DNA of 64,000 bases, from NCBI GenBank assembly GCA_944393215.1, contig CALXZL010000007.1, forward strand, positions 1 through 64,000, written 5' to 3'. Origin of the DNA: an uncultured Alphaproteobacteria bacterium. Its GTDB lineage: Bacteria > Pseudomonadota > Alphaproteobacteria > RF32 > CAG-239. The notes below the pieces were generated by a model. The model was not told the DNA's origin. It made no database searches and worked only from the letters and a program-made list of their open reading frames with translations. Shown here piece by piece: positions 37,491 through 52,469 of the stretch (the stretch's first letter is position 1; each line of letters starts with the position of its first letter). The translations under genes and the position numbers were made by a program.

Positions 37491-37497
37491 TAATTTT

Positions 37498-37526: not shown

Positions 37527-37607
37527 TGCTTTTAAAAAATTTTTTATCAAAAGACAAAATTTATACTTGATTTTTATGATAATTGTTTGTATGTTTCTTT
37601 CGTTGTT

Positions 37608-37682
37608 GCCGCTGTAGCTCAGTGGTAGAGCACGTCATTGGTAATGACGGGGTCGCAAGTCCGATTCTTGCCAGCGGCACCA
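37608..37682 (+). tRNA. trnT: tRNA-Thr (anticodon GGU)
   Basis: A 75-nt cloverleaf: acceptor GCCGCTG/CAGCGGC, anticodon stem CGTCA/TGACG with loop TTGGTAA (anticodon GGT), T-arm GCAAG-TCCGATT-CTTGC, encoded CCA at 37680-37682. It is the integration target of the island: the antisense strand of its 3' half encodes the last codons of the serine recombinase. The usual terminator no longer follows; it now lies at 52300. The T-arm contains the octamer AGTCCGAT that recurs through the island. Confidence 0.97.
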
Positions 37683-39215
37683 TTTATCAGTTTCTGGCGT
37701 TTTTAGTAGTTCATCGAATGGCTTAACTATTGAAAACGCTATATTTTTTCCTTCAGTTTTGCAGTCCGATAATATTAATTTCAAAATGTCTCTTTTTTCA
37801 GAAATAATCGGACTTTTTAAGAATTTTCCTACATTTGCAGCTATTTCCGCGATATTTGCCAAGATTTCATCTGTTTCGGTATCAATCTCAAGGTATCTAT
37901 CCATATCTTTTTGTAGTTTTTCTTTTTCCATTTCAATTTCAGTTTTTAATTCATTATACATTTTTTCATCGCATTTACCTCTCATATAGCCACGAAATAA
38001 GTTTTTTGCTTCTTCATCAAGCTCATTTAATTTAATGGTAATGTCTCGTTTGAGATTGGCTGTATTGATATTTTCGGCTTTGAGTTGCTTTTTTACTTCC
38101 AACTTAATATTTTTTAACATAGTGTCACTAATGTTAATAGGTAATGACAATTCTTGTTCAAGCTGTTGTAAGATTTTTGCTTCATTGATTGGTTTTTGTG
38201 AACATTTGGAACGTAATTTGTTACATTTTAAATAATTGTAAGAATGTTTATCGTCTTTTACTTTAGTTTCACAAGTCATTAAACTACCACAACAACCACA
38301 TCTGACTAAACCTGTAAAAATATATTGTTTATCACCATAATATAATTTACTTGGTGCTCGTTTTCTTCCTTCCATGGTATCTTGGACAATTTGAAACAAT
38401 TCTTTATCTATAAATAAAGGATAAGGATGTTTGTAAACTTTGCCTTTTTGCGTAAAATATCCAATGTAAAAAGTGTTTTTCAGTATATTTTGAACTTGAG
38501 CTCGACTAATCGTTTTATTTACACGACACATTTTTGAAGATAATCCTAAGGTTCTGGCTAGATTGGTAATGTCTTGCAAGGTTCGTCCGCCTTTGGCATA
38601 TTCTTCAAAAAGTCTTTTAACCTTTGGTGCTCGTTCTTCATCTATAATTATATCGGCTGAAGTTGTTCTGGTTTTAGATATATTTAAATATCCTACCGGT
38701 GCACAAGATTGCCATTGTCCTGCTTCTCTTTTATATTCCTGACTGCGTAAAACATTGTCTCTTAAAGCACCTACATACATCTTAGCGGATAAAATTCCCA
38801 TATCCCAACGTAAAATATCAGATGAATTGCTATCTCTATGCAAATAGAAACCTTCTTTATAAAAATGTATCTCAATCCTGCCTTGTTTACGCAAATCGTC
38901 TAATTCAACACATTCCTTATATCCTCGTTGCAATCTATCGACACAATTTACAACAATAGCGGTTTTGTGTTTTTGTGATTTTACAAACTCAAGCATTTCA
39001 TAAAATTTTAGACGACCTCCCCGTGTCGAACTTTCTACAATAGAGAATTTATCTAAAATCTTAAACTTGTGATTGTCGCAATAATCAATAACCGTTTTAA
39101 GTTGTGCATCAATGGACGCTCCTTTCTTTTGTTCTTCCGATGAAACTCGAGCAAATATAACGGCTTGTTTACATTCTTCATCTGCAATATTTTGATATTT
39201 ATTCTTTTTAGACAT
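37635..39215 (-). CDS. Large serine recombinase (integrase)
   Basis: Probable integrase/excisionase of the island. The 526 residues contain the resolvase catalytic domain (AVIFARVSSEEQKKGASIDAQ, with the nucleophile in ARVSS), the recombinase domain (APVGYLNISKT, about 170-270), a zinc ribbon (CGCCGSLMTC and CNKLRSKC, about 310-345) and a coiled-coil region (about 380-460), as in phage and ICE large serine integrases. AAGGAG precedes the ATG. The reading frame runs through the island boundary and stops inside tRNA-Thr at 37635, so its last ten residues (ESDLRPRHYQ) are antisense tRNA. Most known integrases at tRNA genes are of the tyrosine type, so the pairing is notable. Confidence 0.95.
   Translation of the reverse strand: MSKKNKYQNIADEECKQAVIFARVSSEEQKKGASIDAQLKTVIDYCDNHKFKILDKFSIVESSTRGGRLKFYEMLEFVKSQKHKTAIVVNCVDRLQRGYKECVELDDLRKQGRIEIHFYKEGFYLHRDSNSSDILRWDMGILSAKMYVGALRDNVLRSQEYKREAGQWQSCAPVGYLNISKTRTTSADIIIDEERAPKVKRLFEEYAKGGRTLQDITNLARTLGLSSKMCRVNKTISRAQVQNILKNTFYIGYFTQKGKVYKHPYPLFIDKELFQIVQDTMEGRKRAPSKLYYGDKQYIFTGLVRCGCCGSLMTCETKVKDDKHSYNYLKCNKLRSKCSQKPINEAKILQQLEQELSLPINISDTMLKNIKLEVKKQLKAENINTANLKRDITIKLNELDEEAKNLFRGYMRGKCDEKMYNELKTEIEMEKEKLQKDMDRYLEIDTETDEILANIAEIAANVGKFLKSPIISEKRDILKLILSDCKTEGKNIAFSIVKPFDELLKTPETDKWCRWQESDLRPRHYQ
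37667..37685 (+). repeat. Attachment-site copy 1 (inside tRNA-Thr)
   Basis: CTTGCCAGCGGCACCATTT; the first 16 bases are the 3' end of tRNA-Thr. Left junction of the island. Identical to copies at 47248 and 52273. Confidence 0.9.
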
Positions 39216-39364
39216 GATATTACTCCTTAAAATTAGTCCGATAATGTTATTATGTCGTGTTATTTTGGGAAAGTACGCAGTTATTTTCAGCTTTTTGCAA
39301 TTTTTTTACTAACAAATTACTGATATTTCAAAAGACTAACCTAATTCCCAATTGGAACGAGGTT

Positions 39365-39391
39365 ATAAAAAGTTATTGTCGTTAACGTCAC
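39365..39391 (+). repeat. Island repeat, copy 1 (TTATTGTCGTTAACGTCAC)
   Basis: The string AGTTATTGTCGTTAACGTCAC, preceded by ATAAAA, recurs at 45897-45924 in the same orientation. Both copies are preceded by a similar ATTCCCAAT...AGGTT segment 25-35 bases upstream. The core GTTAAC is a palindrome. Both lie in non-coding DNA. Confidence 0.8.
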
Positions 39392-39404
39392 AAAGTCAAA
39401 AAAA

Positions 39405-39434
39405 ATAACCTCTGCTGAAATTTACAGAGGTTGG
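39405..39434 (-). terminator. Terminator of the 61-residue ORF
   Basis: AACCTCTG (39407-39414) pairs with CAGAGGTT (39425-39432); on the minus strand it is followed by a T-run. It isolates the recombinase gene from the next gene upstream. Confidence 0.8.
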
Positions 39435-39440
39435 GAATAT

Positions 39441-39626
39441 TTAAGTTGATTTAGTGTCGTTGATGTCCGTTAATGTTTTTTCAGATTGCTTTGCATGATA
39501 AACAGCCTTTGCTCCTAAATAGAAAAAACGGATTAATTTGTTAGTCATTTCAGTTAATTCATTATCCGTAAAATCGGGATAATAAATCTTTAATTCCTCT
39601 TTTATTTCATTAAATGTATCAGTCAT
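39441..39626 (-). CDS. Small acidic protein of unknown function
   Basis: A 61-residue helical protein (EIKEELKIYYPDFTDNELTEM, then NKLIRFFYLGAKAVYHA). It sits upstream of the recombinase, where small regulators or recombination directionality factors often lie, but no helix-turn-helix is evident. The Shine-Dalgarno is weak. A terminator follows the stop. Confidence 0.6.
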   Translation of the reverse strand: MTDTFNEIKEELKIYYPDFTDNELTEMTNKLIRFFYLGAKAVYHAKQSEKTLTDINDTKST

Positions 39627-39739
39627 AATAATTATATGTCGGGATTGAATAAATATGTAAAACAGGAAATAAACACCTATTTTGATATATATAAATTACG
39701 ACTGATACAAATTATAAAAAAAATCCAATTTTGTAGCTA

Positions 39740-40147
39740 TTATTTTGAAGAACAGAATATTAATCCATTTTGAGTTTGGGAGCAAACAGAATATATATCT
39801 CCTTTATACCAACGAGTTTCATGTAATTTATATCCTACATATCCGCCAAAACTATTTTTAGCATTATATTTTACCTTTGTGCACCATCCCAACAAAGGCG
39901 TAGCAGGAGAATCTTTCGCAGGAAAATTGCATCTATAAGGCTCTGACCAAATAAATTTAGCACTATCAGGATCTTTCAAAAGCATTTTTATGCCAGTTTC
40001 AGTAATAGCTTTATATTCTTTGGGTAATGTTCCATAATCTTCATTTGTTGAATTTTGTAATAAGACCTTTAAATTATTCTGATATTCTATTTGTGTTGCA
40101 GAGCAACTACATAAAAAAACAACCAATAAAGTAAATATTCTTTTCAT
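39740..40147 (-). CDS. Lipoprotein, prophage-type
   Basis: A 135-residue lipoprotein: MKRIFTLLVVFLCSCSATQ is a lipoprotein signal peptide with Cys at 13 or 15. The mature part has LKDPDSAKFIW, GWCTKVKYNAKNSFGGYVGYK and ETRWYKGDIYSVC, the pattern of a family of small phage and plasmid lipoproteins with a NAKNSFGGY core. AAAGGA precedes the chosen ATG at 40147; a longer frame from 40180 would hide the signal peptide. Its role may be surface exclusion or envelope modification; inference. Confidence 0.8.
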   Translation of the reverse strand: MKRIFTLLVVFLCSCSATQIEYQNNLKVLLQNSTNEDYGTLPKEYKAITETGIKMLLKDPDSAKFIWSEPYRCNFPAKDSPATPLLGWCTKVKYNAKNSFGGYVGYKLHETRWYKGDIYSVCSQTQNGLIFCSSK

Positions 40148-40229
40148 TAAAATAAATCCTTTATCTATAATATTATGCATATAGCATATGTATATATTAT
40201 TAAAATAACGTAAAATTCTTTACCGTATA

Positions 40230-40991
40230 TTATTCAATGTAAGGCTTTAAAAAATCAATATTATATCTTGCAACACAACGACAACCATCAATTTCAGATA
40301 CTGGAGCACCCATACTATCATCCCCAGGATACATCATTTTTTCTCCAGAAGGAAGAATAAAAGGTTCAGAAAATGGAATGCCTTTTTCTTTGCTATAAAC
40401 TTTTCCCATATATGCATGAGATTTTCTTGTTCTATTATCTCCACAATCATCCCACCATTTAATAATTTGATTTTCATCAATTAAGCCTTCTTTTATGATT
40501 TTCTTTAAGCTTTCGTATTCTCCTTTATTACGTGCTTTTGTGTACTCTCCTTGAATAATTGTATTAATAAAATTCATAATCAACTTATTTTTTAAGGACA
40601 AAAGAATTCTATCAATCTGCTCTGTAGATAATTTTTCTTGTTTTTGTATTGCTTTCTTAACACTTTTATCATATCTCTTATCGCGACATTCAATTAACAG
40701 ATAAGCAGAATCTAAATTTTCTAATAATTTTTTTATTTGGAGGATATTTTCATTTTGAAATTTATCAATATCAATTACCCCGCCAATTCTCTTTTTAGTA
40801 ATATGATCTATCCTACCGACAATTTCTAAAGAAGCTTTTTTAGGATTTTGACCTTTTTCTAATGCCTTTTTTAAAATTTTACGAATTCTATTTTTTTGTT
40901 CATCTGATAGTTCTGTCAGTGAAGATAAATCACTTTCAGATATAACCTTTTCTGTTGTTAAATTACGCATAAAATTAATGTTTATTACCAT
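40230..40991 (-). CDS. Phage Mu F-like (minor head protein domain) protein
   Basis: The C-terminal 80 residues match the phage Mu gpF/SPP1 gp7 type domain: WWDDCGDNRTRKSHAYMGK, PFILPSGEKMMYPGDDSMGAP and CRCVARYNI (DxRTR..H, later Cys-Arg-Cys). The N-terminal 170 residues are Lys/Glu-rich helices. In phages this domain belongs to head morphogenesis proteins; stand-alone versions also occur in toxins and mobile elements. No portal, capsid or terminase gene is near. GAGGAAAA precedes the ATG at 40991, which I prefer over the ATG at 41012. Total 253 residues. Confidence 0.75.
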   Translation of the reverse strand: MVININFMRNLTTEKVISESDLSSLTELSDEQKNRIRKILKKALEKGQNPKKASLEIVGRIDHITKKRIGGVIDIDKFQNENILQIKKLLENLDSAYLLIECRDKRYDKSVKKAIQKQEKLSTEQIDRILLSLKNKLIMNFINTIIQGEYTKARNKGEYESLKKIIKEGLIDENQIIKWWDDCGDNRTRKSHAYMGKVYSKEKGIPFSEPFILPSGEKMMYPGDDSMGAPVSEIDGCRCVARYNIDFLKPYIE

Positions 40992-41088
40992 TTTTCCTCT
41001 GAAACTATTCAATTCATTATTCTATAAATATTTTAATACTAAAAAATTGTAGATACGACCAATATTTTTAAATATAAACATTTATCAC

Positions 41089-41422
41089 AATCGTAGCAAA
41101 ATGTCATCAAGAAAGTGAGTTTTAGGGGCTCGCGAATGGGAAAATACACGGCATAATATAAATAGTTAATGAGTAAAACAACTATTTATGAAAGGAAAAA
41201 CAATGTGGTATGTAAAATTAAATAATACAATTCTTCCAACGCCTTATCAATATTTTAGCGATTGTCTTAAGGAATGCAAAAGACTGCAATGGGTTATGGT
41301 TGCCGTATCCACGGAACCTGTATTTGTTGACTAATTTGGTATCAAGGAGATTTGCTATGTTAAAAAAATTTGAAAATTGGTTGTTAAATAATAATTACAG
41401 ACCTACCACCGCTTTTGATTAT
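41089..41422 (+). repeat. 334 bp inverted repeat, copy 1 (leader, small ORF, start of next gene)
   Basis: Aligns with the reverse complement of 48457-48790 with few differences. It covers a conserved leader (AATCGTAGCAAAATGTC, then TTTTAGGGGCTCGCG), a hairpin AAATAGTT/AACTATTT just before the Shine-Dalgarno, the 43-aa ORF, and the first 22 codons of the next gene. The two copies are inverted and 7 kb apart. Confidence 0.9.
41203..41334 (+). CDS. Conserved 43-residue protein, copy 1
   Basis: A short ORF beginning MWYVKLNNTILPTPYQYF and ending in EPVFVD. A homologous ORF (48546-48677, minus strand) is the same length with seven substitutions and no frameshift, which supports real coding. AAAGGA precedes the ATG, and a hairpin lies right upstream. 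The sequence is amphipathic, with two cysteines spaced four apart (DCLKECKRLQ). Not recognised. It is followed after 22 bases by the 89-residue gene. Confidence 0.75.
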   Translation: MWYVKLNNTILPTPYQYFSDCLKECKRLQWVMVAVSTEPVFVD

Positions 41423-41626
41423 CAAGGAAGAATTGAAAGATTGTGTCGTGCTGAAGGTTATACTCTATCTCATTTGGTTGAAAATATTGCTTTGATTTTA
41501 CCTGAATATGAAATTAACGGTAAAAAATCAAGTTATGGTAAAAGAAGTCATACTTCGGTTAGACAAGCCTTGAGACGTTTTAAGATGTTTTTGGTATCAA
41601 ACAAATTCATTGAAAGCGTAAAATAA
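41357..41626 (+). CDS. Small protein resembling a recombinase core-binding (SAM-like) domain
   Basis: An 89-residue helical protein: FENWLLNNNYRPTTAFDYQ and SVRQALRRFKMFLVSN have the look of the N-terminal arm-binding/core-binding domain of tyrosine recombinases, but no catalytic domain follows. The ATG at 41357 has a clear AAGGAG six bases upstream; a longer frame from 41300 overlaps the 43-residue ORF in another phase and is discounted. Its stop overlaps the next start by one base (TAATG), so it is coupled to the DUF3768 gene. A truncated second copy is at 48352. Confidence 0.75.
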   Translation: MLKKFENWLLNNNYRPTTAFDYQGRIERLCRAEGYTLSHLVENIALILPEYEINGKKSSYGKRSHTSVRQALRRFKMFLVSNKFIESVK

Positions 41627-41943
41627 TGACTGATATCAAAACCTTAAATGATAACTTTAGAAAAACCTTTAGCGGTGGAAGAGTTACATTATCTTGTGGA
41701 ATATCCGCCAAGAGTCAAAGTGAATTAGCTGAAATATTAAATCAAGTTAGGTGTTTTAATAACTTTACCAAAGCAAACGATCCGTATAATGAGCATGATT
41801 TTGGCAGTTTTTACTATAAAGGAGAACAAATTTATTGGAAAATTGATTATTATGATAAAAATTACCGATTTTATTCAGAAAATCCATGTAATCCAAATAT
41901 AACCAACCGAGTTATGACGATTATGTTATCTCACGAATATTAA
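41626..41943 (+). CDS. DUF3768 protein
   Basis: A 105-residue protein with the DUF3768 pattern: LNDNFRKTFSGGRVTLS, FTKANDPYNEHDFGSF, YWKIDYYDKNYRFYSENP and NRVMTIMLSHEY. DUF3768 is a small uncharacterised family found mainly on alphaproteobacterial plasmids and genomic islands. It is translationally coupled to the preceding gene and closed by a terminator, giving a three-gene unit with the 43-residue ORF. Confidence 0.9.
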   Translation: MTDIKTLNDNFRKTFSGGRVTLSCGISAKSQSELAEILNQVRCFNNFTKANDPYNEHDFGSFYYKGEQIYWKIDYYDKNYRFYSENPCNPNITNRVMTIMLSHEY

Positions 41944-41950
41944 AACAATT

Positions 41951-41990
41951 TAGTCCGATTTGAGTAGTATCAAGTCGGATTTTTTATTTT
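41951..41990 (+). terminator. Terminator of the DUF3768 unit
   Basis: TCCGATTTGA pairs with TCAAGTCGGA (one wobble), followed by six T. The left arm includes one copy of the octamer AGTCCGAT. Confidence 0.85.
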
Positions 41991-42060
41991 TGATATTTTA
42001 ACTTCGTAACCTCAATGACAACAAGTTATTTTAAACATCTTATTTTTTAACCCGTGGATA

Positions 42061-42126
42061 CAACCTTTTTATTTGGTATAGGTTTTATTACTTTTATCAA
42101 ATCCGGTTATCCATGGGTTGTTTATG
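42061..42126 (-). pseudogene. Fragment of the HUH Rep-like gene
   Basis: The minus strand of about 62 bases matches the Rep-like gene at 45108-45170 (TTHELQNDIKAIEPIPNKN region): here it reads TTHG, stop, then PDLIKVIKPIPNKK. A stop codon replaces the Leu codon, and nothing further of the gene is left. It lies between the DUF3768 unit and the KAP gene and suggests past loss of a second rep copy. Confidence 0.6.
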
Positions 42127-42141
42127 GAGATGTATAATATG

Positions 42142-44313
42142 CTAAAATTCTTCTTCATGTTTTTTTATAAACTTAATTATTTTTTCATAAGCTGTTACCA
42201 CATGTTGATAATAGTCATCTTCCAACTCATTTAATGCACGCTTTTCTAATTTGTAATTATGTAAAGTTTTTTTAGCTTTAACATAATCATTATCAAGTTT
42301 ATTAATAATCTTAAAAAAAGGTAAATTGCATTGTTTTTTTATTATGTTGATGTTCCATAAAGTTGTATCGCCATTAGTTTGTTCTACAAATTTATCTAAT
42401 AAGTCTAAGAGACCAGGGGCAACATCAATATTGTTTGAAATTAACTGTTGAAACAAAACCCCATATAACTCAGGTGTATATTTTTCAAAGTCGATATAAA
42501 AGATTAAGTTGTTTCTCGGCAAATATGACTTCTTAGTATTGTATGTTTCAACATACTCATGAATATATTCTGCCCGTTTAACACTGTTTTCAGAAATATT
42601 TATTAAATCGTATGTATGTAGCTGAGACAAAGAAGAATAATCTTGCTGAAAATACTCTTTGATATTTAATAAGGGAAGTTTTTGATTAAACAGTATATTA
42701 AATTCTTTAGTCGCTTCTCTTTGAAATTCATAATTAGAAACTATTTGTGTAAACTTTTGAGAAGATAGAGTCTGGTCATTTATTGCATGAATAAAAAATG
42801 AAACAAGATATCTATTTTTGTCAAGTTCACTAAAATGATTATCTAAAAGTCTAACTTCATCATATGAAAGTTTTTGTAATATTAGTTGGTACTGTTCATA
42901 AGATATTGGCAAATCACCTGAATTATATGCAAAATAAAAATGTTTAAATTTAGTTTTTTTCAAAATTCTTATTAGTGTATTTACTTCAGCTTCAACGGCT
43001 GAATTATCAATTTTAGGCAGAGAAATATTTTGTAAAATAGAAGATTTTATACTGTTATATAAATCAATATCTTTTAATTTTACAATCTCCAGAGTTTTAA
43101 ATATATAAAAATCCACATTTTGAGATAATAATTCATATTTTTCTTCAAGCGTTTGATATTTAAAAATGCTAGCAGCTTTAAGTTTATTAATAATAATTTT
43201 AATTTCTCTAATATTTTGTGGATAATAGTATAAATTTAAAGCACGAAAAGAAGTTTGATAACTATTAGTTTTCTCTTTCCATGTTTTTAATTCAGTATCT
43301 TGGCTTATTAAATTATCTAGTAATGTATTCAAATCTTCCGCTGTAATAGTAGGTACTTCGAAATATAGATTGATTATTTTATCACAATAATGTGTTGCAA
43401 CATCATTATTGTTAGAAAATTGTTGGAAATATTTATCAATACTATTTTCTACTACCTTTCTATCAAGACAAAGAATAAAATATACATTTTCAAAATTTGC
43501 CACACATCTAATAAGTTTAAATATTTGTAATATCTCTTGAGGATCTAATCGATCTAAATCATCTATTGTAATAATAAATTGTTTTTCGCTCTGATTAATC
43601 TTTTGTTGAATGATTTCTTTTAATTCTTCATCAGACTTGTTTATAAAAAATAAGATAATCTTTCCCCAAAAGCCACAATCTTTATCTAGAATATCTTTAA
43701 ACGCTGACAAATAGACTATATTTATTCCATAATTTATTTTTTTTAATTCAGAGTTTAATTTATCAACAAAAGCATTAGTATAATTTATATTTTTAGCAAA
43801 TACCCAAGGTTGAAATGAGAAATGATAAAAATCAGGATACTTACCACTTTTGATTATTTCTTTTATTTGTTTTAAGACGTAAGTTTTTCCATTCCCCCAT
43901 TTCCCATCTAATCCTATAACAAGATTATTTGTTCTATTTTTGTCTTTATAAAAATTATTAATCATTTGTAAGATATTGTCTGCAAAAATACGTTTACCAA
44001 AATCATATTTTAAAATATATCCATCATTATGTTCGAATAAAGTATCTTGTTTTTCCTTGGCCTTGAAAAACAATATAATATCTTTAAACAAACTTACAAA
44101 ACTATTCCATTTTAAGGCAAGAAAAAGAGTAAACAACCAAATATAGAAATATATATTTTGTTTTATATGTAATATAAACTGAGAAAACCAATCGTTTCTT
44201 GTACTAAAGAAAAAAGAATGCTCGTAATAATCGTACAAGGCTATCCCCCACGGTAAGAAAATTATGGAGATATAAACTAAAGCAATTAATATTTTTTTTA
44301 GAAGTATTTTCAT
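42142..44313 (-). CDS. KAP family P-loop NTPase, membrane-anchored
   Basis: A 723-residue STAND/AAA-type ATPase of the KAP group. Two N-terminal membrane helices (ILIALVYISIIFLPWGIAL and NIYFYIWLFTLFLALK) fit the classic KAP layout. Walker A is GLDGKWGNGKT (about residues 134-144) and Walker B is FIITIDDLDRLDP (about 250). The rest is a helical C-terminal region without recognised effector domain. KAP NTPases occur patchily in bacteria, often on mobile elements, and several are suspected in defence against phages. No clear Shine-Dalgarno precedes the ATG. It is alone, with 246 bases to the Rep-like gene. Confidence 0.92.
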   Translation of the reverse strand: MKILLKKILIALVYISIIFLPWGIALYDYYEHSFFFSTRNDWFSQFILHIKQNIYFYIWLFTLFLALKWNSFVSLFKDIILFFKAKEKQDTLFEHNDGYILKYDFGKRIFADNILQMINNFYKDKNRTNNLVIGLDGKWGNGKTYVLKQIKEIIKSGKYPDFYHFSFQPWVFAKNINYTNAFVDKLNSELKKINYGINIVYLSAFKDILDKDCGFWGKIILFFINKSDEELKEIIQQKINQSEKQFIITIDDLDRLDPQEILQIFKLIRCVANFENVYFILCLDRKVVENSIDKYFQQFSNNNDVATHYCDKIINLYFEVPTITAEDLNTLLDNLISQDTELKTWKEKTNSYQTSFRALNLYYYPQNIREIKIIINKLKAASIFKYQTLEEKYELLSQNVDFYIFKTLEIVKLKDIDLYNSIKSSILQNISLPKIDNSAVEAEVNTLIRILKKTKFKHFYFAYNSGDLPISYEQYQLILQKLSYDEVRLLDNHFSELDKNRYLVSFFIHAINDQTLSSQKFTQIVSNYEFQREATKEFNILFNQKLPLLNIKEYFQQDYSSLSQLHTYDLINISENSVKRAEYIHEYVETYNTKKSYLPRNNLIFYIDFEKYTPELYGVLFQQLISNNIDVAPGLLDLLDKFVEQTNGDTTLWNINIIKKQCNLPFFKIINKLDNDYVKAKKTLHNYKLEKRALNELEDDYYQHVVTAYEKIIKFIKKHEEEF

Positions 44314-44559
44314 TTTGATATCATATGTCTGTAATATTTATTTGATAAATTGTATAAAAATAATCCTATAGATACAACTTATCTTTTTCAACCACAAAAG
44401 TAAAACAATACAACTTTTGTAAAATTTAGCAGAAGTTAAACATAATAATACCTATTTACAATGTGTTATAACTATCCAAAAGAATCTGATATAAATGTAT
44501 TGTCGTGCATATTGGGATTTGTAAACGGTTAAACTTCCATTATGATGTTTTTTTATAAT

Positions 44560-45555
44560 TTAGTTTCTTTGAGGATTAAGATTAAATAAGTCTTCAGAAA
44601 AAATCATATGGTCACTATCAAATTTACCATTCCAATATATTTTTATTTCTTTCATACAATAATAAGTAACATTTAACAATTTTGGTTCAATTGGTTTTAA
44701 ATTCATGCAATATGACGGTAAGTTTTCTCTCATCATTGCTTGAAAAATAGCATCTTGGAGTTCTTGTTCACTAAATCTTCCTCGATTAAATAATATATGA
44801 AAATGCCAGTCCGAACTTATTCCATTTTCAGCAAATGCAATAAACCGAAGATGGTGATGCTCCCAATTGTTCATCAAACTCTTTTCAAATGCTTTCATAA
44901 TGTTTCTTAAATGACTAATTGAGTTATATAAATCTTTAGTCTTCTTGTTTTCTGGTAGTTGTACGGTTAAAAAGTGAGTCGGTTTATATTCTTTAGCAAT
45001 CCATTTATTTAATCTTTTTTTTATCGTGGAAGAATTTGTTGCCTTTTTTCCTTGAGACACAGATTTTATGATATTACCCATTTTTTGACTGTAGGAATCA
45101 GTATTTTTATTTGGTATAGGTTCGATTGCTTTTATATCATTTTGTAGTTCATGGGTTGTTTTAGGCTTGTTTATGCTCGTGTTTTGGTTAAGATTTTCAT
45201 TATTAGCACATCTGGAGATATAAAAGAGTATATTAACTATTTTCTGTATATAGTTTATTTTATTTTGCTTGAGTTTTCCATTATAAATACTCTTAAATTT
45301 ATTATAAAAACCATTTAATAAAGAAGAATTAACTAAATAATCCTTAAAAGAAATACCATATTCAACAAGAAAAGGACTCAATTTTACTTTATCAATAACA
45401 GAAATTAATCCATATCTTCTTATAATACCTAAGACATATACATAATCATCAATACATCTTGTTGCATGACTTATTGACAATTTTAACATCTTGTTTTCTG
45501 TCATTATCTCTTGCAACCATACTCTTTCATATTTGTATTTATTCATTTTTATCAT
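44560..45555 (-). CDS. HUH-type replication initiator-like protein
   Basis: A 331-residue protein whose C-terminal half has the three motifs of rolling-circle Rep proteins: THFLTVQLPEN (motif 1), SDWHFHILFN (HUH motif 2) and VTYYCMKEIK (motif 3, YxxK with tyrosine). The N-terminal half is helical and Lys/Asn-rich. Such proteins nick the origin of small plasmids and phages or act in conjugation. The spacing of motifs (about residues 196, 253, 296) fits a Rep. Start could be Met1 or Met4. No single-strand origin is identified. If functional, the island could replicate as a circle after excision. Family not recognised by name. Confidence 0.75.
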   Translation of the reverse strand: MIKMNKYKYERVWLQEIMTENKMLKLSISHATRCIDDYVYVLGIIRRYGLISVIDKVKLSPFLVEYGISFKDYLVNSSLLNGFYNKFKSIYNGKLKQNKINYIQKIVNILFYISRCANNENLNQNTSINKPKTTHELQNDIKAIEPIPNKNTDSYSQKMGNIIKSVSQGKKATNSSTIKKRLNKWIAKEYKPTHFLTVQLPENKKTKDLYNSISHLRNIMKAFEKSLMNNWEHHHLRFIAFAENGISSDWHFHILFNRGRFSEQELQDAIFQAMMRENLPSYCMNLKPIEPKLLNVTYYCMKEIKIYWNGKFDSDHMIFSEDLFNLNPQRN

Positions 45556-46356
45556 CCAATTAGTATTTATTTAAGTTATTAATTTTATTTATTTTTTTAA
45601 TAATAATTAAGTTATTTTTTGATATAAAAATAACAAAGGCCGCCTGAATAAAAGCTTCCTCGTATCCCGAACTGATGAAACAGTTATACCAAGATTATGG
45701 TGGATTTTGGTAATCGGTTTATAATGATACATTTAAATAGAATTGTTTTTTTCACAAAATCTAATGATAAAATTTCTTAAAGATAAAAATTTTTTGGTTT
45801 TACATTTTTGTTTTCCATGACATTATACATATAAAATCACATAAAAATAATGATTTAACTTCATTCCCAATAAGAATTAGGTTGTTGGATTATTTTATAA
45901 AAAAGTTATTGTCGTTAACGTCACGAACTTTTAACATCTGAATGTCAAAGGTTGAAATCATTAAATGACATTGATGTCGGTTTATCAACTTTTGTAAAAA
46001 TTTGCAGAAGTCTATTTGAAAAATAAAAATCAAAGAAGCTCTCTCACACGTAAAGGCCTTGACTAAAATTCGCTTAACAAAAAAAATAATCTTATCCAGT
46101 ACGGTACGGCATGGCTGTATGGTATCCATGGAAGGTGTAGGTGTCGGGTATCCTTTATGGCGGTGGAGCTATCCCGTTATGCTTATGCCAGTCCGATATT
46201 AAAATAAAGAGACAAAGACGGTTAAATCCTTGCCTCTCTACGTGTCTGTCTATGCAGTTTTTGAACTCCAAAATTATATTGTCGTGTTATTCATCAAATC
46301 GGAGCGGTAAAAATTTGGCTTGTGCGTAAGTTTAACAATCTGCATGAGATTAATAT
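45556..46356. other. 800-base stretch without convincing gene
   Basis: Very AT-rich DNA upstream of the Rep-like gene. It holds copy 2 of the TTATTGTCGTTAACGTCAC repeat (45897-45924), one AGTCCGAT octamer (46190) and a GC-richer patch (46095-46200) with short open frames on both strands (about 60-80 codons) lacking ribosome sites. The position next to rep and the GTTAAC-containing repeat make it the best candidate for an origin of replication, but no iterons or nick-site hairpin can be named. Confidence 0.5.
45897..45924 (+). repeat. Island repeat, copy 2 (TTATTGTCGTTAACGTCAC)
   Basis: Same 21-base core as 39371-39391, also preceded by ATAAAAA and by an ATTCCCAAT segment. The two copies bracket most of unit 1. 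Confidence 0.8.
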
Positions 46357-46926
46357 TTAGTTGGATGGTAAAAATTTTGGAAGTTTGCCACACTCTTTCT
46401 TTATTGCCTTAGCATTACCACCATTATCTATATAGCTACTTCCATAACAACTGCAATATTTTTCATCTTGAGGTAATTTTTCATCTCCATAGGAATTTAT
46501 ACACAAGGCATATATATTTTCTTTTGCTTCAGAAATTCTATTCTGATGTTCTTCTTCTGACTGATAATTGTTTTTATATTCAAAAACAATTTGAGAAACT
46601 GTTTTTTGTGCCCCTTCTTTGTTTTGGTACTTATATACTCCATTTCTGACAGCACACTTGTCTGAGGGAACTTCATAAATCATACCATCATATAAGTCTT
46701 CACTAACTTTATCCCCAAAAATAAAATTCACATTATTGCTATAAGCATCACTGCAGTCTGGAGTAAAACATTCAAAAGCTAACCCAGTATTATGATGTAT
46801 AGCTTGTAATACTTTGAATCTACGAACACCTATACAATTTTCATTATCAACTCCAATTTCACTTAAAGAATCGATAGTTGAACAAGATGTTAGTAAAAGT
46901 ATAAGCAATAAATAAATTTTCTTCAT
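46357..46926 (-). CDS. Cysteine-rich lipoprotein
   Basis: A 189-residue lipoprotein with signal peptide MKKIYLLLILLLTSC (lipobox L-T-S-C, Cys15). The mature part has eight or more cysteines (FECFTPDCSD, DKCAVRNG, ALCINSYG, KYCSCYGSS, KECGKLP), suggesting several disulfides in the periplasm. Not recognised; perhaps an inhibitor or surface-exclusion lipoprotein. GAGAGG precedes the ATG. Last gene of unit 1. Confidence 0.8.
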   Translation of the reverse strand: MKKIYLLLILLLTSCSTIDSLSEIGVDNENCIGVRRFKVLQAIHHNTGLAFECFTPDCSDAYSNNVNFIFGDKVSEDLYDGMIYEVPSDKCAVRNGVYKYQNKEGAQKTVSQIVFEYKNNYQSEEEHQNRISEAKENIYALCINSYGDEKLPQDEKYCSCYGSSYIDNGGNAKAIKKECGKLPKFLPSN

Positions 46927-47247
46927 AGTAACCTCTCTTTTTAGATATACTATAAAAATAACTTTTAATTTTCAAATATATTCTTTACTTTCAAACATAT
47001 CAATTTTCCTACTCAAAAGCTTAAAATCATCATAGAAATTAGTCCGATAATTGCATAGTATCTCGCACCATTAAAACACAAGAGCGCCCTTTAGGGGCGT
47101 TTTTGTGTTTTAAAAGTATTGTTTGTGAGAAATCGGACTTGCGGGGACAAGAGCAAGTCTGACGACAGAGCCAAGCGAAGTTTGGCGAAGGAGAGCGAGC
47201 AAAGCGAGAACCTTTGGTTTGCGCGGTGGCAGAGCCGCGCGCACAAG

Positions 47248-47266
47248 CTTGCCAGCGGCACCATTT
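47248..47266 (+). repeat. Attachment-site copy 2
   Basis: Exact copy of the 19-base tRNA-Thr tail. It is the boundary between units 1 and 2. Upstream bases differ from tRNA, so no complete tRNA is formed here. Confidence 0.88.
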
Positions 47267-47273
47267 TTAGAAA

Positions 47274-47297
47274 TGCACCAATTAAGGTGCTTTTTTG
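47274..47297 (+). terminator. tRNA-type terminator after attachment copy 2
   Basis: GCACC (47275-47279) pairs with GGTGC (47286-47290), then six T. It resembles the one after attachment copy 3, the original tRNA-Thr terminator, so it was probably captured from a tRNA-Thr locus. Confidence 0.7.
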
Positions 47298-47501
47298 TTA
47301 TGAAAACCAAGGCTTTCAGACAGTCCGATTTTGGAAGTTTTGAAAACAGCATTTTTTGATAACCTATCGGACTTTTTGTGCAAACGCTAAGAAAATCAAG
47401 CTTCTTACCATTTCAAATCCCAGTCCGATAAAATAAAAAAATCTTTTATTTTTTGCTCAACTATGGTATCCTTCAACTATAATACGAATGCGGAGGTTAT
47501 T

Positions 47502-48275
47502 ATGGTTGCCAAATATAAGGAAGAAGATGTACTAAACACTCGTCTTACTTGGAATGAAAAATCAGATGATTTAGACAATATTTTATTTAAGCAAAATGGT
47601 TTTTCAGTAAAAAGGCTAAGTGTTGAATCTCAAATAAACGGGGCTCAAAGTAAAATTGATGCTAATGCTTTAGTAGGTTTGGGAACAACATTATTAAACG
47701 ACCGACAATCCAATCAAAACTTTTATTCTTTATTACTTCCTTCACAGGCATGTTTTTGCGGCTCTCACGCTGTAGCAATGGCTGTTGATAATAAAAGCAA
47801 AACAATTTATTATCATGATTCCCACGGTGAGGATATGCGTAAAGAGATGAAAGACTTTCTGGGGATGTTATTACCTGAGTATGAAATTTCTATTAATCAT
47901 TCCAAACAGCAAGAAGATGTTATTAATCCTCTTGTTTCAGAAGAAAATGATAATTCTTGTGTTTTGCTTACCAAATATAACTTGCGAGATATGTGGTATA
48001 AAATCAACGGGCAAGAAGACAAAATTTGTGATTACTCTTCGCTAGAAGCCAGAAAAGATGCTTGGAACAAGTTAAAAAACATTCAAAAGGAAGAAATTGT
48101 TAATGCCGTTGAAACAAAAAAGTCTGGTTTCAAAATTGGAATAAAAAAAACACCATCAAAAGAAGAATTGAATGCAATAAAAGAAGCTGAAAAGACTGAT
48201 TTTCAATATCGTATGTATAATGAACCCAATTATAAAGACTTATTGCAAGGAGCTGTCACAAAAAGCAAAATCTAA
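47502..48275 (+). CDS. Candidate CE-clan cysteine protease/acetyltransferase (Ulp1/YopJ-like)
   Basis: A 257-residue soluble protein. GSHAVAMAVDNKSKTIYYHDSHGED looks like the core of the Ulp1/C48 and YopJ/C55 fold: His89 in SHAVAMAVD, Asp106 in YYHDSHG, and Cys153 in NDNSCVLL, with 17 and 47 residues between them, close to the spacing in Ulp1-type proteases. A Gln pair lies 16 residues before the Cys. Members cleave ubiquitin-like proteins or acetylate host proteins and are common effectors of host-associated bacteria. The ATG at 47502 has GGAGG; the longer frame from 47463 does not. Family membership is inferred from order and spacing only. No secretion signal is visible. Confidence 0.65.
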   Translation: MVAKYKEEDVLNTRLTWNEKSDDLDNILFKQNGFSVKRLSVESQINGAQSKIDANALVGLGTTLLNDRQSNQNFYSLLLPSQACFCGSHAVAMAVDNKSKTIYYHDSHGEDMRKEMKDFLGMLLPEYEISINHSKQQEDVINPLVSEENDNSCVLLTKYNLRDMWYKINGQEDKICDYSSLEARKDAWNKLKNIQKEEIVNAVETKKSGFKIGIKKTPSKEELNAIKEAEKTDFQYRMYNEPNYKDLLQGAVTKSKI

Positions 48276-48351
48276 TCATTTGGCATATTGCAAACAATTA
48301 ATGGTACAAAAAATTAGGTAACCCTTTCTATTCAACATAATATGGCTGAAT

Positions 48352-48522
48352 TCAATGTACTATGTATGAGGTGTAATTTTTAGCTGTCCTCAAACATCTT
48401 AATTTGTCTTGATAATTCCTTAAAATCATCATAGAAATTAGTCCGATAACTGCACAATAATCAAAAGCGGTAGAAGGTTTATAATTCTGTTCCAAAAGCC
48501 AGTTTTCAAAATTCTTTAACAT
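48352..48522 (-). pseudogene. Truncated, fused copy of the 89-residue gene
   Basis: The first 22 codons (MLKNFENWLLEQNYKPST...) match the gene at 41357, then the homology breaks and the frame runs into unrelated DNA (the TGTGCAGTTATCGGAC sequence of the 327 bp repeats) and continues to a stop after 56 codons. In another frame the same DNA encodes the YRTNFYDDFK relic tail. AAAGGAG is kept before the ATG. A recombination junction between two island repeats explains it. Confidence 0.75.
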
Positions 48523-48790
48523 CTCAAATCTCCTTTATCAAAAATTTAGCCAATCAATACCGGTTCGGAAAACACAGCCACCATAACCCGCTGCAATCTT
48601 TTACACTCAGCCAGGCAATCGCTAAAATATTGATAAGGTGTTGGAAGAATTGTATTATTTAATTTTACATACCACATTGTTTTTCCTTTCATAAATAGTG
48701 TTTTGCTCATTAACTATTTATATTATGCGGTATATTTTCCCATCCGCGAGCCCCTAAAATGCAACTTGCCAACGACATTTTGCTACGATT
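48457..48790 (-). repeat. 334 bp inverted repeat, copy 2
   Basis: Reverse complement of copy 1 (41089-41422): same leader blocks, same hairpin before the Shine-Dalgarno (AAATAGT/ACTATTT, one base shorter), same 43-aa ORF, same start of the next gene. Homology ends abruptly at the 22nd codon of the truncated gene. Confidence 0.9.
48546..48677 (-). CDS. Conserved 43-residue protein, copy 2
   Basis: Same length and start (MWYVKLNNTILPTPYQYF) as the ORF at 41203, ending in EPVLIG. Differences from copy 1 are all in-frame substitutions (for instance KEC to AEC and QWV to QRV), and several third-position changes are silent (such as CCA-ACG to CCA-ACA). AAAGGA precedes the ATG. The downstream partner gene is truncated here, but this ORF remains intact. 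Confidence 0.75.
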   Translation of the reverse strand: MWYVKLNNTILPTPYQYFSDCLAECKRLQRVMVAVFSEPVLIG

Positions 48791-48952
48791 TGGACGGGAT
48801 TGCTAAGAAACGGACAAAAATCCTTTAACTTTTCGGTAAATCAGAAAAGAAGTTTTGTATAAATGATGTTTTTGATGTGATATATTAATTTGTCCAAGCC
48901 TGAAATAAAAGTACTAAAACAAAAATTTCAATATTAAGGACTATGTATTCCT

Positions 48953-49945
48953 CTATATTAAATCTGCATAAGGCAATGATTTGATATAGTCTTCCATATA
49001 TTGCCAATCAGGATCACCTTTTTGCGTTATTGGCAAACGAATAGTCTCATTACAAAATTTATTATAAAAAGCTTTTCTGCCAAATTGAAATTTATACTTA
49101 TTTTTCTTCATAATTGTTGTTATAAACAATGCATTATATTTATTTAGTTTCTCGTTATGGAAACAGTATATTTCATCTGATGCTGTAAATTCATTTTCTA
49201 CATAAAAAGCAGATGCAAATGTATTATATACTATGCAATTTTTTTCTATAAAAAGAGGATTGCTAATCTGATCTGTTTGGCTATTGTTAAATTCGGAAGC
49301 TGAATAATAATCAATATCGCCACTAATTCGATCTTCAGCAATTAATCGTTGCCCATGTGTTATTCGTGTCCATAGTTTTTTATCTATAAAGGAAAATTCG
49401 CCCCATTTTTTTATATCTTTATAGCAAGTTGATATGTTTAAAGTTTCAATAGGATTAAATTTTACATTTTTTGTTATATTATTTGTATAATTCTCCATAT
49501 AATTCCAATCAGGCACATTGTTTTTATCTACAGGAAGAAGGATATTTTCTCTTTCCAATCTACTATTACTTATCTCTCTTCCAAAATTATACTTATAACG
49601 TATTTTTTCAAAAACTGGCTTAAGATATAGAGCTATATTTTTTGTTAACATTCTACCTTTAGGCCAAAAAACCGTAACATGATCGGATGCTATAAAATTA
49701 TAATTATGATAAAAAAGATATCCGACACTACCACTATTGCTAATTGTTAAGCAATTATTATAGACAATTACTTTAGCTCCTTTTTTTGTTGTTAAAGGGG
49801 GTGCTACATAGTCATTAATGCCATTATTATCTTTAGAGGAAGAAACATAAGGAATATCTCCTATAATATGCTCATCTTCTGTAAAGCGAACACCTCTTTT
49901 ATAATCAAAAACCTCAGAAAAAGGAAAATATTTAAATTGCTTCAT
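48953..49945 (-). CDS. Specificity (S) subunit of a BcgI-like restriction-modification system
   Basis: Gives the system its DNA target. The 330-residue protein has two half-domains of the HsdS type: residues about 1-160 (FPFSEVFDYKRGVRF, IPYVSSSKDNNG, FGREISNSRLERENILLPV, PDWNYMENY) and about 165-325 (FSFIDKKLWTRITHG, IDYYSASEFNN, FGRKAFYNKFCNETIRLPI, PDWQYMEDY). Each half holds one target recognition domain. Its length is close to BcgI B (about 340 residues). Its ATG overlaps the end of the nuclease-methylase gene by 14 bases, and AAGGAAA lies upstream. Confidence 0.88.
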   Translation of the reverse strand: MKQFKYFPFSEVFDYKRGVRFTEDEHIIGDIPYVSSSKDNNGINDYVAPPLTTKKGAKVIVYNNCLTISNSGSVGYLFYHNYNFIASDHVTVFWPKGRMLTKNIALYLKPVFEKIRYKYNFGREISNSRLERENILLPVDKNNVPDWNYMENYTNNITKNVKFNPIETLNISTCYKDIKKWGEFSFIDKKLWTRITHGQRLIAEDRISGDIDYYSASEFNNSQTDQISNPLFIEKNCIVYNTFASAFYVENEFTASDEIYCFHNEKLNKYNALFITTIMKKNKYKFQFGRKAFYNKFCNETIRLPITQKGDPDWQYMEDYIKSLPYADLI

Positions 49946-51893
49946 TTTTATTTTCCTTATAATATGCGCTCAGAATATCAAGCATTTCGGCCTCTGACTT
50001 TTCTTCAAATAATATACCGATGTCTTTTTTAGCCTCAAATATCATATATTCACGCACAGAATTAATAAAATCCTGTTCAGATAAATTAGAATAATCTGTT
50101 TTACTATGTGCATAAATAGTCCACTCATCTTTGGGTTTGATTTTTGTTTTTACATATATGATATCATCTGGTTTTTCACCATTATTTGTTCCTCTTATTA
50201 TAGATAATAATTTTTTTTCAATGCTATTCCATTTATTGTAGATATCTGTTCTGCCTTTATTTTTAGCAAGAACAAAGCCATCGTCTCGCAAATCATAAAA
50301 AATTACTTCATCATTATTATAATCAAATGCCCTATTGGTTTCAAAAATAGCTATAGCTGTATGAGTAGAAGCATTTGGTTGGAATAAATCCTTTGGCATA
50401 TTTATTACTGCTTTTAATGTATGTTTTTTTAAGATGTTATCACGAATAGCTTCATCTTTAAAATACATACTTAGAGGAGCAATAACTATCCCATAACGAG
50501 AACAATTATCTAATAACTTTGTTAAAAATGTTATTTCCTTCGGTGTTGGATCTTCTTTATTTTCCTTGCCGCTGTAAGGAGGATTAATAAAACCAATAGT
50601 AGCTTTAAATTCATCTAGCTTTTCTTGTGCTCTACAATCTTTTATCGAATCATAATTGTAAATAGATGATTTTCCATCGCCTCTAAACATCATACTTGAT
50701 ATAGCACATATATACATAGTAGGATTTATCTCAAAGCCAAGTAACTGTGTCTGTTTTACATTAGCAATGGCTTCTTGTTTATCTGTTCTATTGCTTTTTT
50801 CAATTTTATTTATAATAGCATTCATCCCAGCAATCAAAAAAGCTCCTGTTCCACAACATAAATCTACTATTTTATCATTTTCTTTCAAATCGATTAGTTT
50901 AGTGAAAAGGGTTGTAATATGGCGAGGAGTCAAAACAATACCTTTTTTTACATTAGAAACACCTGCATATTTTAAAAATTCTTCATAAAACCTTCCAATA
51001 ATATCATAATTTGAAGATTTAGCAAAATTACCAGTAAGTAAAGGAATAACATTATTTTTTAGTTCATCCAGAATCTGTTTTAAAATATCACTTGTTCTTA
51101 ATGTAACATCCGTTTTCAAAAATGCTAATTCAGTATCTAATACTTCTAGCTTTTCAGCCGGAATTCCTTCGTTTTTTAAAACACGAGGAGCTTGAAGTAA
51201 GATATTATCCGCTAATGTGGTTGTATCCATAGTGCTATAAGTTGCGGAGAAAGATCCTGTATTTTTATTATGAAGACATATCATCAAAGCAGACAATAAA
51301 ATTGGTCTTTTTTGCGAATCTATAGATCTAAGAAGATTATTTATTTTTTTACTTGAGGAACTTATTTTTGTAACAGCCTCTTCTTCATTCAAACTATTGA
51401 ATAAAGCTAAAAAAGAGTCTTTATTTACAAAATTCGTAATCTGAGGAACAGAAATAATCTTTTGCTCTCTATTGTCTAGCATAAAACAACTAAATTTATA
51501 TTGATATTCTTTTAATAAATCCCCACTTACAGCAATACCTAAAATTCTCCATGATTTAAAAACATTTTTTTGAGAATTGTCTAAATTATTTTCTTGAAAA
51601 CGACTTAAATACCATTTAATGCCACTTACAGCACCCTTTTCTATATCTTCTAAATCATGTTCTTTCATTGTGGGCTTTTCTTCAACAAGAATAAGCAGCT
51701 TATTCTTTCCATCGCAATAAATTCTATCCGGATAACCTTCACGCCCTGTTTGTCTCTTTGATGAGCAAGATAAAACTTTCTTAATATCATCAGTTAATTT
51801 GCTTTTAGAATCATCCCAATCCGCAACATGATATCCTAAATTCTGCAAAACAGTTGTAACAGATGGTGTTATATTCTTATCTTTTCTTGCCAT
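49932..51893 (-). CDS. Fused restriction endonuclease and N6-adenine methyltransferase (BcgI A-like)
   Basis: A 653-residue protein, close to BcgI A (about 640). The N-terminal domain has a PD-(D/E)xK nuclease motif: Pro55-Asp56 in EGYPDRIYC, then Glu71-Glu72-Lys73 in LILVEEKP. The middle is the HsdM-type N6-adenine methyltransferase: GIVLTPRHITTLFTKL, motif I DLCCGTGAFLIAG and motif IV INPPYSGKE. The last part resembles the HsdM C-terminus. With the S subunit downstream it forms a type IIB system, which cuts on both sides of a bipartite site and protects host DNA by methylation. GGGGA precedes the ATG. Cargo of unit 2. Confidence 0.9.
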   Translation of the reverse strand: MARKDKNITPSVTTVLQNLGYHVADWDDSKSKLTDDIKKVLSCSSKRQTGREGYPDRIYCDGKNKLLILVEEKPTMKEHDLEDIEKGAVSGIKWYLSRFQENNLDNSQKNVFKSWRILGIAVSGDLLKEYQYKFSCFMLDNREQKIISVPQITNFVNKDSFLALFNSLNEEEAVTKISSSSKKINNLLRSIDSQKRPILLSALMICLHNKNTGSFSATYSTMDTTTLADNILLQAPRVLKNEGIPAEKLEVLDTELAFLKTDVTLRTSDILKQILDELKNNVIPLLTGNFAKSSNYDIIGRFYEEFLKYAGVSNVKKGIVLTPRHITTLFTKLIDLKENDKIVDLCCGTGAFLIAGMNAIINKIEKSNRTDKQEAIANVKQTQLLGFEINPTMYICAISSMMFRGDGKSSIYNYDSIKDCRAQEKLDEFKATIGFINPPYSGKENKEDPTPKEITFLTKLLDNCSRYGIVIAPLSMYFKDEAIRDNILKKHTLKAVINMPKDLFQPNASTHTAIAIFETNRAFDYNNDEVIFYDLRDDGFVLAKNKGRTDIYNKWNSIEKKLLSIIRGTNNGEKPDDIIYVKTKIKPKDEWTIYAHSKTDYSNLSEQDFINSVREYMIFEAKKDIGILFEEKSEAEMLDILSAYYKENKNEAI

Positions 51894-52272
51894 AATATTT
51901 CCCCGTATAACTATATTTTTATAGTTATATTAATTTTTACACAATAATATAAAAATTTAGTTAATATTAACATTAATTTAATCTTTAGCCGTTAACGACA
52001 TCAAACAACGACTCGTTAAAAAGCTCAACTTTTCTTATTAACCGCTTAAATTCATCATAATTTTCAGTCCGATAACTGCACAGTATCGCGCACCATTAAA
52101 ACACAAGAGCGCCCTTTAGGGGCGTTTTTGTGTTTTAAAAGTATTGTTTGTGAGAAATCGGACTTGCGGGGACAAGAGCAAGTCTGACGACAGAGCCAAG
52201 CGAAGTTTGGCGAAGGAGAGCGAGCAAAGCGAGAACCTTTGGTTTGCGCGGTGGCAGAGCCGCGCGCACAAG

Positions 52273-52291
52273 CTTGCCAGCGGCACCATTT
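52273..52291 (+). repeat. Attachment-site copy 3 (right boundary of the island)
   Basis: Exact copy of the 19-base tRNA-Thr tail. To its right lies what should be the original chromosomal flank of tRNA-Thr. Confidence 0.88.
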
Positions 52292-52298
52292 TTTAGAA

Positions 52299-52323
52299 TG
52301 CACCCTTTGAGGTGCTTTTTTTG
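52299..52323 (+). terminator. Displaced tRNA-Thr terminator
   Basis: GCACC (52300-52304) pairs with GGTGC (52311-52315), followed by seven T. Joining 37682 to 52289 would restore tRNA-Thr plus this terminator 10 bases downstream, so it is probably the native terminator moved 14.6 kb by the integration. Confidence 0.75.
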
Positions 52324-52468: not shown

Positions 52469-52469
52469 T

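Follow-up and report, generated by a model that had tools for sequence, protein, structure and literature searches.

We analyzed a 64,000-nt stretch of contig CALXZL010000007.1 (assembly GCA_944393215.1; family CAG-239, order RF32), referred to below as the window, with a tRNA-Thr gene and the DNA inserted behind it as the subject. Comparison of sequences makes it likely that this locus is the tRNA-Thr end of an integron-like array of mobile cassettes, served in trans by a large serine integrase. All genomes compared are multi-contig drafts with one genome per species, and the named relatives are mostly metagenome-assembled genomes (MAGs). A sequence-only reading of the same DNA had described two adjacent units, one of them with a recombinase gene, delimited by three copies of a 19-base tRNA tail. 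Three exact copies of CTTGCCAGCGGCACCATTT are indeed present (37667-37685, 47248-47266 and 52273-52291), with no others in the window at up to 3 mismatches (chance expectation 0.01). The first is the 3′ end of tRNA-Thr(GGT), 37608-37682 plus CCA, and a single recombinase gene, at 37635-39215 on the minus strand, was found among the scanned open reading frames (ORFs) of the stretch. Accretion at the tRNA, with a non-autonomous cargo unit beside an integrase-bearing unit, is also supported, whereas that reading's boundaries and scale are not borne out. The cassettes end 193 bp before the middle and right 19-mers, at GCACCATT cores at 47065 and 52090, and the 19-mers were rejected as unit ends because they close a 193-bp mini-block. 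Unit 1 thus terminates at 47041-47072, where GCACCATT follows the sequence that we term X, and not at 47248; a separate 193-bp block then follows. Since the cassettes end at these cores, circular junctions designed on the 19-mers would miss the expected product. An arrangement local to this genome, consisting of one integrase island and one neighboring non-autonomous island, would fit the two large intervals between the three 19-mers, but it is scarcely credible given that the boundaries differ from the 19-mers and that arrays in related genomes reach five junctions.

X is an 80-bp sequence found before each of the two cores, ending unit 1 (46991-47072) and a restriction-modification (R-M) cassette (52016-52097). 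Its last part is an attP-type half-site in which the 8-mer AGTCCGAT stands 16 nt before GCACCATT (47041-47072 and 52066-52097). The tRNA-Thr gene with its encoded CCA (37608-37685, plus strand) ends in a related, attB-type half-site that would serve as the acceptor, with AGTCCGAT at 37658-37665, 11 nt, and the core GCACCATT at 37677-37684. The two sites can therefore be written as AGTCCGAT-11-GCACCA for the tRNA and AGTCCGAT-16-GCACCA for X. The 8-mer occurs 16 times in the window, where about one occurrence is expected, and 15 of these lie between 37658 and 52354.

The spacing rule was assessed in relatives at several scales. In 23 loci (the window, 5 genus relatives and 17 loci around integrase relatives), 20/20 tRNA sites had a spacing of 11 and 22/22 other junctions a spacing of 16, with none elsewhere from 6 to 24. 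A further set of 20 array loci, some overlapping loci of the first set, gave 9 sites at 11, 44 at 16, 6 at 17, 1 at 10, 1 at 15 and 3 at 22, the last three having one common sequence. Order-1 Markov controls (5 runs) produced 0-1 pairs against 91 observed, with some loci overlapping. When 109 family genomes were scanned with the distance from AGTCCGAT to the core left free from 4 to 28, 86 genomes matched and the reversed-pattern control gave 0; among the 150 matches listed, 78 were at 11, 62 at 16, 7 at 17 and 1 each at 5, 14 and 15, and a 16- or 17-nt site was present in at least 42 of the 109 genomes. For the Listeria LI integrase, the zinc-ribbon motif has been placed at positions 16-24 of the 25-bp attP half-site, and 5 bp nearer the center in attB (PMC3783163). 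The left half-sites described here differ by the same 5 bp (16 vs. 11 nt) around an unchanged 8-mer, which fits recognition by a serine integrase, with the tRNA as the attB-type and X as the attP-type left half-site.

X also encodes a conserved C-terminal tail that is in frame with the integrase. Its minus-strand translation in this frame is WC(E/A)ILC(N/S)YRTNFYDDFKxLSRKI, and the copy that ends unit 1 gives the tail WCEILCNYRTNFYDDFK. A stop within 24 codons was found in 3/51 X sites in this frame, whereas the two remaining minus-strand frames contained one in 34/51 and 51/51. Among single-base codon differences in X, 34.1% were synonymous in the integrase frame against 14.9% expected, and the other two frames stayed near expectation (20.1 vs. 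19.5 and 23.3 vs. 20.0). Seven distinct X junctions (8 rows, one contig occurring twice) are followed by an integrase 3′ end, and at all of them the tail frame was open through the core for 25-38 residues. The tail was absent at 13/13 tRNA junctions, where the protein ends in WCR, WCRR, WCRW or WCRWQESDLRPRHYQ; three more integrase 3′ ends follow a mini-block. From these alternative ends we infer a tailed form of the integrase in a circular element.

Many cassettes carry, in addition, a 52-bp inverted pair, AGTCCGAT-36-ATCGGACT, whose halves are of approximately attP half-site length. In the window it lies within the integrase coding sequence (37763-37814, 86 nt past the core) and in the second cassette (47322-47373, 64 nt past that cassette's core). 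A scan of the 109 family genomes with the spacing left free from 24 to 48 detected the pair in 71 genomes and in none with the reversed-pattern control; among the matches listed, 68 of 75 places had a spacing of exactly 36. Our junction recount comprised 99 distinct junctions, 10 of which open a mini-block, leaving 89; the pair followed 60 of these 89 cores (60/99 of all distinct junctions). Its offset from the core was 62-65 in 38 cases, 85-86 in 19 and 245-248 in 3. The class at 85-86 is the integrase cassette, with the pair inside the coding sequence, and the class at 245-248 would fit an added mini-block. Between offsets 64 and 86 lie roughly two turns of the helix.

Three sister integrases on tRNA-Leu contigs (34-35% identical) contain an exact 8-36-8 pair built from different arms, AGTTCGAA and AGTTCTCA. 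Together with the window's own integrase, they make up the 4 of 9 integrases compared that have an exact pair. No exact pair was found in L007, L010 and L061, where the best candidates (7/8) are indistinguishable from chance, or in L014 and L015 (6/8). The exact palindrome with changed arms in the tRNA-Leu sisters, and the lack of an exact one in these five others, suggest that the palindrome is kept as DNA, and the pair may be an accessory binding site. The idea that it is a general by-product of serine-integrase coding found no support, an exact pair having been detected in four of the nine. As a separate observation, two 98% identical cassettes in L097 and L099 (at 8324 and 2736) show no match until the inverted pair, the terminator pieces ahead of it being different; the 62-64-bp terminator piece may thus be exchanged separately.

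An intact cassette starts, on its left, with the tRNA tail core GCACCATT, usually followed by a terminator-like hairpin and often by the 52-bp pair; on its right it closes with X, where AGTCCGAT stands 16 (sometimes 17) nt before the next core. A strict test detected a perfect hairpin with a T-run in 52/77 left arms. The 45 cassettes collected (size filter 500-6000 bp, one contig counted twice) span 704-4832 bp, and the tRNA site comes first wherever a locus includes the tRNA. Their ORFs run in both directions, 45 away from the tRNA and 35 toward it. The 58 cassette proteins that were scanned include DNA methylases, NgoFVII-like and other restriction enzymes, NERD, GNAT, HAD, NUDIX and GDSL proteins, a methyladenine glycosylase, and the PADLOC candidates PDC-S01, S04 and S13.

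Related cassettes are shared between genomes. The R-M cassette of the window (48482-52097), which ends at GCACCATT, is 99.25% identical over 3617 aligned positions to L056 10741-14356, a counterpart that is adjacent to a tRNA in another genome. It encodes a specificity subunit (Methylase_S, 48953-49945, minus strand) and a type IIG/BcgI-like restriction-methyltransferase (49932-51893, minus strand), so that the BcgI/type IIG-like pair recognized in the sequence-only reading is confirmed by profile scans (N6_Mtase, E 3e-27; Methylase_S, E 3e-25). A cassette in common between L100 and L102 is 99.5% identical, with the identity stopping at the core, and a cassette with a 558-residue ORF is 90% identical between L097 and L099, both ends lying within 2 bp of cores. 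The tRNA-Thr array L039 and the tRNA-Leu array L101 have the right-hand 743 bp of a cassette in common (90%, ending at the core), and the tRNA-Leu (TAA) tail of L101, AGTTCGAT-11-GCACCA, obeys the same spacing rule. Many other matches, among the 120 listed, are not bounded by cores on both sides. A fossil array, produced by homologous recombination or duplication between repeated ends and no longer moved by a site-specific enzyme, would agree with the frequent decay of distal X copies and with the rarity of complete integrases. We consider it very unlikely in view of the near-identical R-M and L100/L102 cassettes in separate genomes, with identity stopping at the core, and of related cassettes at two different tRNAs; X plus core would also be short for homologous recombination.

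Decay of this kind is found in the window itself. A degraded X without a core at 48390-48459, beside a fragment of an ORF with a SAM-like domain, is probably an old cassette boundary, and because of it the former "unit 2" looks like two fused cassettes. Distal X copies are likewise often decayed in L041, L105, L108 and L111, a trend with counterexamples in L098 and L099. To the right, 52283-52400 resembles the left arm of an old, decayed cassette, with a terminator and one AGTCCGAT (52347), the pair being incomplete. Relatives (36-37%) of a 161-residue ORF at 52674-53159 (beginning MKLYHY) occur in the array loci L112/L054 and L101, so old cassettes may continue past the right 19-mer as well.

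X and its half-site are widespread in the family. At a threshold of E ≤ 0.01, where some matches are short and weak, X was detected in 71/127 family genomes and 13/16 genera, often as several copies in the same orientation on one contig. The pattern AGTYCGAT-N9..18-GCACCATT occurs in 113 of 154 genomes of the order, one of the 154 lying outside the family. In 385 genomes of the class, 5 of which belong to the family, the 16-nt site was found in 1 of the 380 others (G225), 2 kb from a tRNA-type site. The 20 named loci are labeled as Alphaproteobacteria (17), Rickettsiales (1), proteobacterium (1) and bacterium (1), and one is a MAG from water deer rectum. In G029:C5, two complete 11-nt tRNA-type tails lie 2.5 kb apart (582-608 and 3038-3064), unlike other arrays.

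The two mini-blocks (47065-47266 and 52090-52291) each measure 193 bp from core to core, with a terminator-like hairpin first and a full 19-base tRNA tail last. The regions 47060-47275 and 52085-52298 hold 99% identical copies of this block, each closed by a distal 19-mer, and a search of the genome itself returned just these two copies, besides the self-inverted stem. The mini-blocks may be explained by integration of the tyrosine type. A 7.2-kb island in G002 (L038, 9163-16475) lies between the same tRNA-Thr tails and, by ORF reading, encodes a 579-residue tyrosine-integrase-like protein, a P-loop-like ORF and a resolvase-like ORF; two types of recombinase may therefore compete for one tRNA-Thr site. 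Extended to the whole locus, this would mean tandem accretion by tyrosine integrases whose core is the 17-19-bp tail, with the serine integrase as a passenger, in agreement with the full 19-bp tails at 47248 and 52273 and with the G002 island. We regard this account as unlikely. The X junctions have GCACCATT alone in common with the tRNA, not the whole tail, and X is tied to the serine integrase by the 5-bp shift, by the pair inside the integrase gene and by the in-frame tail. No tyrosine integrase was found among the ORFs scanned from 37.6 to 52.3 kb, which include just a 108-residue SAM-like ORF with a weak match.

Several observations weigh against a cassette array moved by the serine integrase. 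The anatomy of the tRNA fixes the 11-nt spacing, so that only the 16-nt spacing and the common 8-mer are independent evidence, and no conserved AGTCCGAT-like motif occupies the expected position of the right half-site in 77 distinct left arms. The compared X sequences are related, and the coding counts are therefore not independent. None of the 7 integrase 3′ ends at X proved to belong to a complete gene, five being open for 24-89 codons and those of L102 and L057 partial. No inverted pair was detected behind 29 of the 89 cores. A full-length close integrase (90-100% identical) is present in only 5 of the 109 family genomes, although contig breaks may hide some, and the tyrosine-integrase island of G002 uses the same tRNA tail. 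Finally, no recombination, circle, excision or same-species empty site was seen in these drafts with one genome per species.

Weighing these points, we still favor a cassette array moved by the serine integrase, for which the sequences suggest the following mechanism. The integrase would bind AGTCCGAT through its zinc-ribbon domain, recognize an attB-type half-site in the tRNA and an attP-type half-site in X, and exchange strands within GCACCATT. A circular cassette (X-core-left arm) would enter at tRNA-core-left arm, and its insertion would restore the tRNA, bring in a terminator and move older cassettes outward. The acceptor and the product would then both consist of a tRNA half and a cassette left arm, so that each event re-forms the site, and arrays could either lengthen or shed the cassette nearest the tRNA. 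From the layout, insertion would again yield one site of each kind, with growth at the tRNA as at attI in integrons; with the acceptor rebuilt at every insertion, neither growth nor loss would need a change of site type. An autonomous unit (integrase, 61-residue ORF, SAM-like ORF, DUF3768 and HUH Rep) would supply the integrase in trans to cassettes made up of ends plus cargo. Given full-length integrases in 5 of 109 genomes, most arrays seem to rely on an integrase supplied from another source; partial close integrases are present in other family genomes. The integrase would carry the tail when its gene is joined to its own X in the circle and would end in WCR... plus a stop at the tRNA, so that its form would report the location of the element. 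A more far-reaching proposal, to which we give somewhat less than an even chance, is that of a second, independently evolved integron-like platform, in which a serine integrase shuffles terminator-bearing cassettes at tRNAs across the family, the acceptor is rebuilt at each insertion, the inverted pair (offsets 64 and 86) acts as a synaptic accessory site, and the switch of the C-terminal tail between the circular and tRNA forms controls the reaction.

The integrase of the window (37635-39215, minus strand) has the Resolvase catalytic, Recombinase and zinc-ribbon (Zn_ribbon_recom) domains that define large serine recombinases and matches phrog_95, an integrase. Its 3′ end overlaps the tRNA-Thr gene, from which its final codons are read. 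A 61-residue ORF at 39441-39626 (minus strand) has counterparts beside 8/8 other full-length close integrases compared, 95-98% identical in 6, 67% in L048 and 61% in L047, and by position it is a candidate directionality factor. Other backbone genes are a SAM-like N-terminal-domain ORF (41300-41626) and a DUF3768 ORF (41626-41943), both on the plus strand and identified by profile scan and relatives, and an HUH Rep-like gene (44560-45555, minus strand). Over 44.4-46.4 kb, which includes the Rep gene, L044, L045 and L046 are about 97% identical to the window. Five other integrase units have sufficient flanking sequence (L044, L045, L046, L048 and L050); the 61-residue ORF, the SAM-like ORF and a Rep are present in 5/5, the Rep being 98-99% identical in three of these units and 66% and 43% in two, and DUF3768 is present in 4/5, while the cargo in the gaps differs.

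In the window, the cargo of the autonomous unit consists of a lipoprotein-like ORF (39740-40180), a Mu-F/head-morphogenesis-like protein (40230-41012; phrog_3517, E 5e-52), a PifA-like KAP NTPase (42142-44313) and a second lipoprotein-like ORF (46357-46926; comparison with relatives), all on the minus strand. Neither the cargo at 39740-41012 nor the KAP NTPase had a match within the comparison loci around other integrase units. Beside the Mu-F-like cargo protein, no other phage structural genes were noticed in the element. The HUH Rep-like protein (PF23343, E 3.8e-6) and the KAP NTPase (E 1e-34) bear out the sequence-only reading, whereas its CE-clan protease candidate, the 270-residue cassette ORF at 47463-48275 (plus strand), had no Pfam, PHROG or PADLOC match, its best PDB match (E 0.037) being an unrelated protein; a single-sequence structure model of this ORF was unusable (mean pLDDT 33.7). 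A phage origin of the element is unsupported, as neither the integrase nor Rep had a relative in viral contigs in scans that reach close relatives only, and so is a plasmid origin, with no Rep relative in plasmid records. Eight matches of AGTCCGAT-16-GCACCATT in viral contigs are unlike X and look like chance.

A near-identical 28-base repeat, AAAAAGTTATTGTCGTTAACGTCAC, is present near the integrase (39367-39394) and near the Rep gene (45900-45927), and may be an origin or a regulatory element for the backbone. The only Rfam family to reach its gathering score within 36000-53000 was tRNA. Elsewhere in the same genome, L043 (C3, 10367-12051) contains a second large serine recombinase gene, 31% identical and beside a tRNA-Gln, and related genes overlap tRNA-Leu in L114 and L115; targeting of tRNAs may be common in this clade. 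The window also includes a tRNA-Leu(TAA) at 2589-2700 whose tail, GGTTCGAT-11-GCACCATT, is followed by a terminator that appears to be split by about 40 bases. Between 35386 and 36062, inside the ORFs 35337-35813 and 35440-36348, there are long stretches of 9- and 24-base repeats, and relatives have other repeats in that position.

Integrons are defined by IntI, attI and attC, the attC sites recombining in folded, single-stranded form, and attC arrays without an integrase occur. Like them, the arrays described here line up small cassettes, most of them holding 1-3 ORFs, behind a fixed insertion site, with one integrase for many cassettes, a cargo rich in defense functions and accessory enzymes, and many arrays without a complete integrase. 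Here, however, the recombinase is a serine and not a tyrosine enzyme of the IntI kind, the site is a tRNA gene with 11/16 half-site spacing, and the cassettes usually open with a terminator-like hairpin and carry genes on either strand. Among staphylococcal cassette chromosomes (SCC), units without a recombinase exist, and recombinase-less units with the same flanking repeats are found here as well. SCC/SCCmec and the enterococcal cassette chromosomes (ECC) are described (PMC6222049) as having Ccr large serine recombinases, insertion at the 3′ end of a gene and repeated att sites, and these features have counterparts in the arrays. In contrast to ccrAB or ccrC at the 3′ end of rlmH, the target here is tRNA-Thr or tRNA-Leu and the integrase is a single protein; compared with ECC (21-78 kb), the cassettes are short (0.7-5 kb) and have the extra 52-bp inverted pair. 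With a recombinase other than IntI and a target other than rlmH, the arrays resemble integrons and SCC composite islands in the way they work but belong to neither group.

The large serine integrases of phages (A118/LI, Bxb1 and phiC31) have the same domain layout and the 5-bp zinc-ribbon shift (PMC3783163), but differ in that the acceptor here keeps a cassette arm and would be regenerated, the target is a tRNA, and the tail would change on integration. Tandem accretion of integrative and conjugative or mobilizable elements is presented in PMC5357655 as stacks of a few integrase-bearing and decayed elements at one site, as opposed to the family-wide pool of interchangeable short cassettes seen here. 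The nearest precedent that we found for the tail is mycobacteriophage BPs, in which attP lies inside the repressor gene and integration removes a 33-residue C-terminal tail (PMC4557955); here the gene whose tail changes is that of the integrase itself. The word "tRNA" is absent from the main text, as available, of a 2022 survey of large serine recombinases (PMC10083194). Within the part of the open-licence literature and of the titles and abstracts that was accessible, preprints not being covered, we found no tRNA-anchored serine-integrase cassette array.

The integron is the textbook example of a movable gene library behind one site. If the proposed platform is real, a second such library, with an unrelated recombinase and at tRNA genes, would make this arrangement a general solution. 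It would also provide a natural serine integrase with one site and many cassettes for engineering, and would add a clear example of tRNA genes as serine-integrase targets. For the organisms themselves, it would explain a hypervariable, defense-rich spot across a family of uncultured Alphaproteobacteria.

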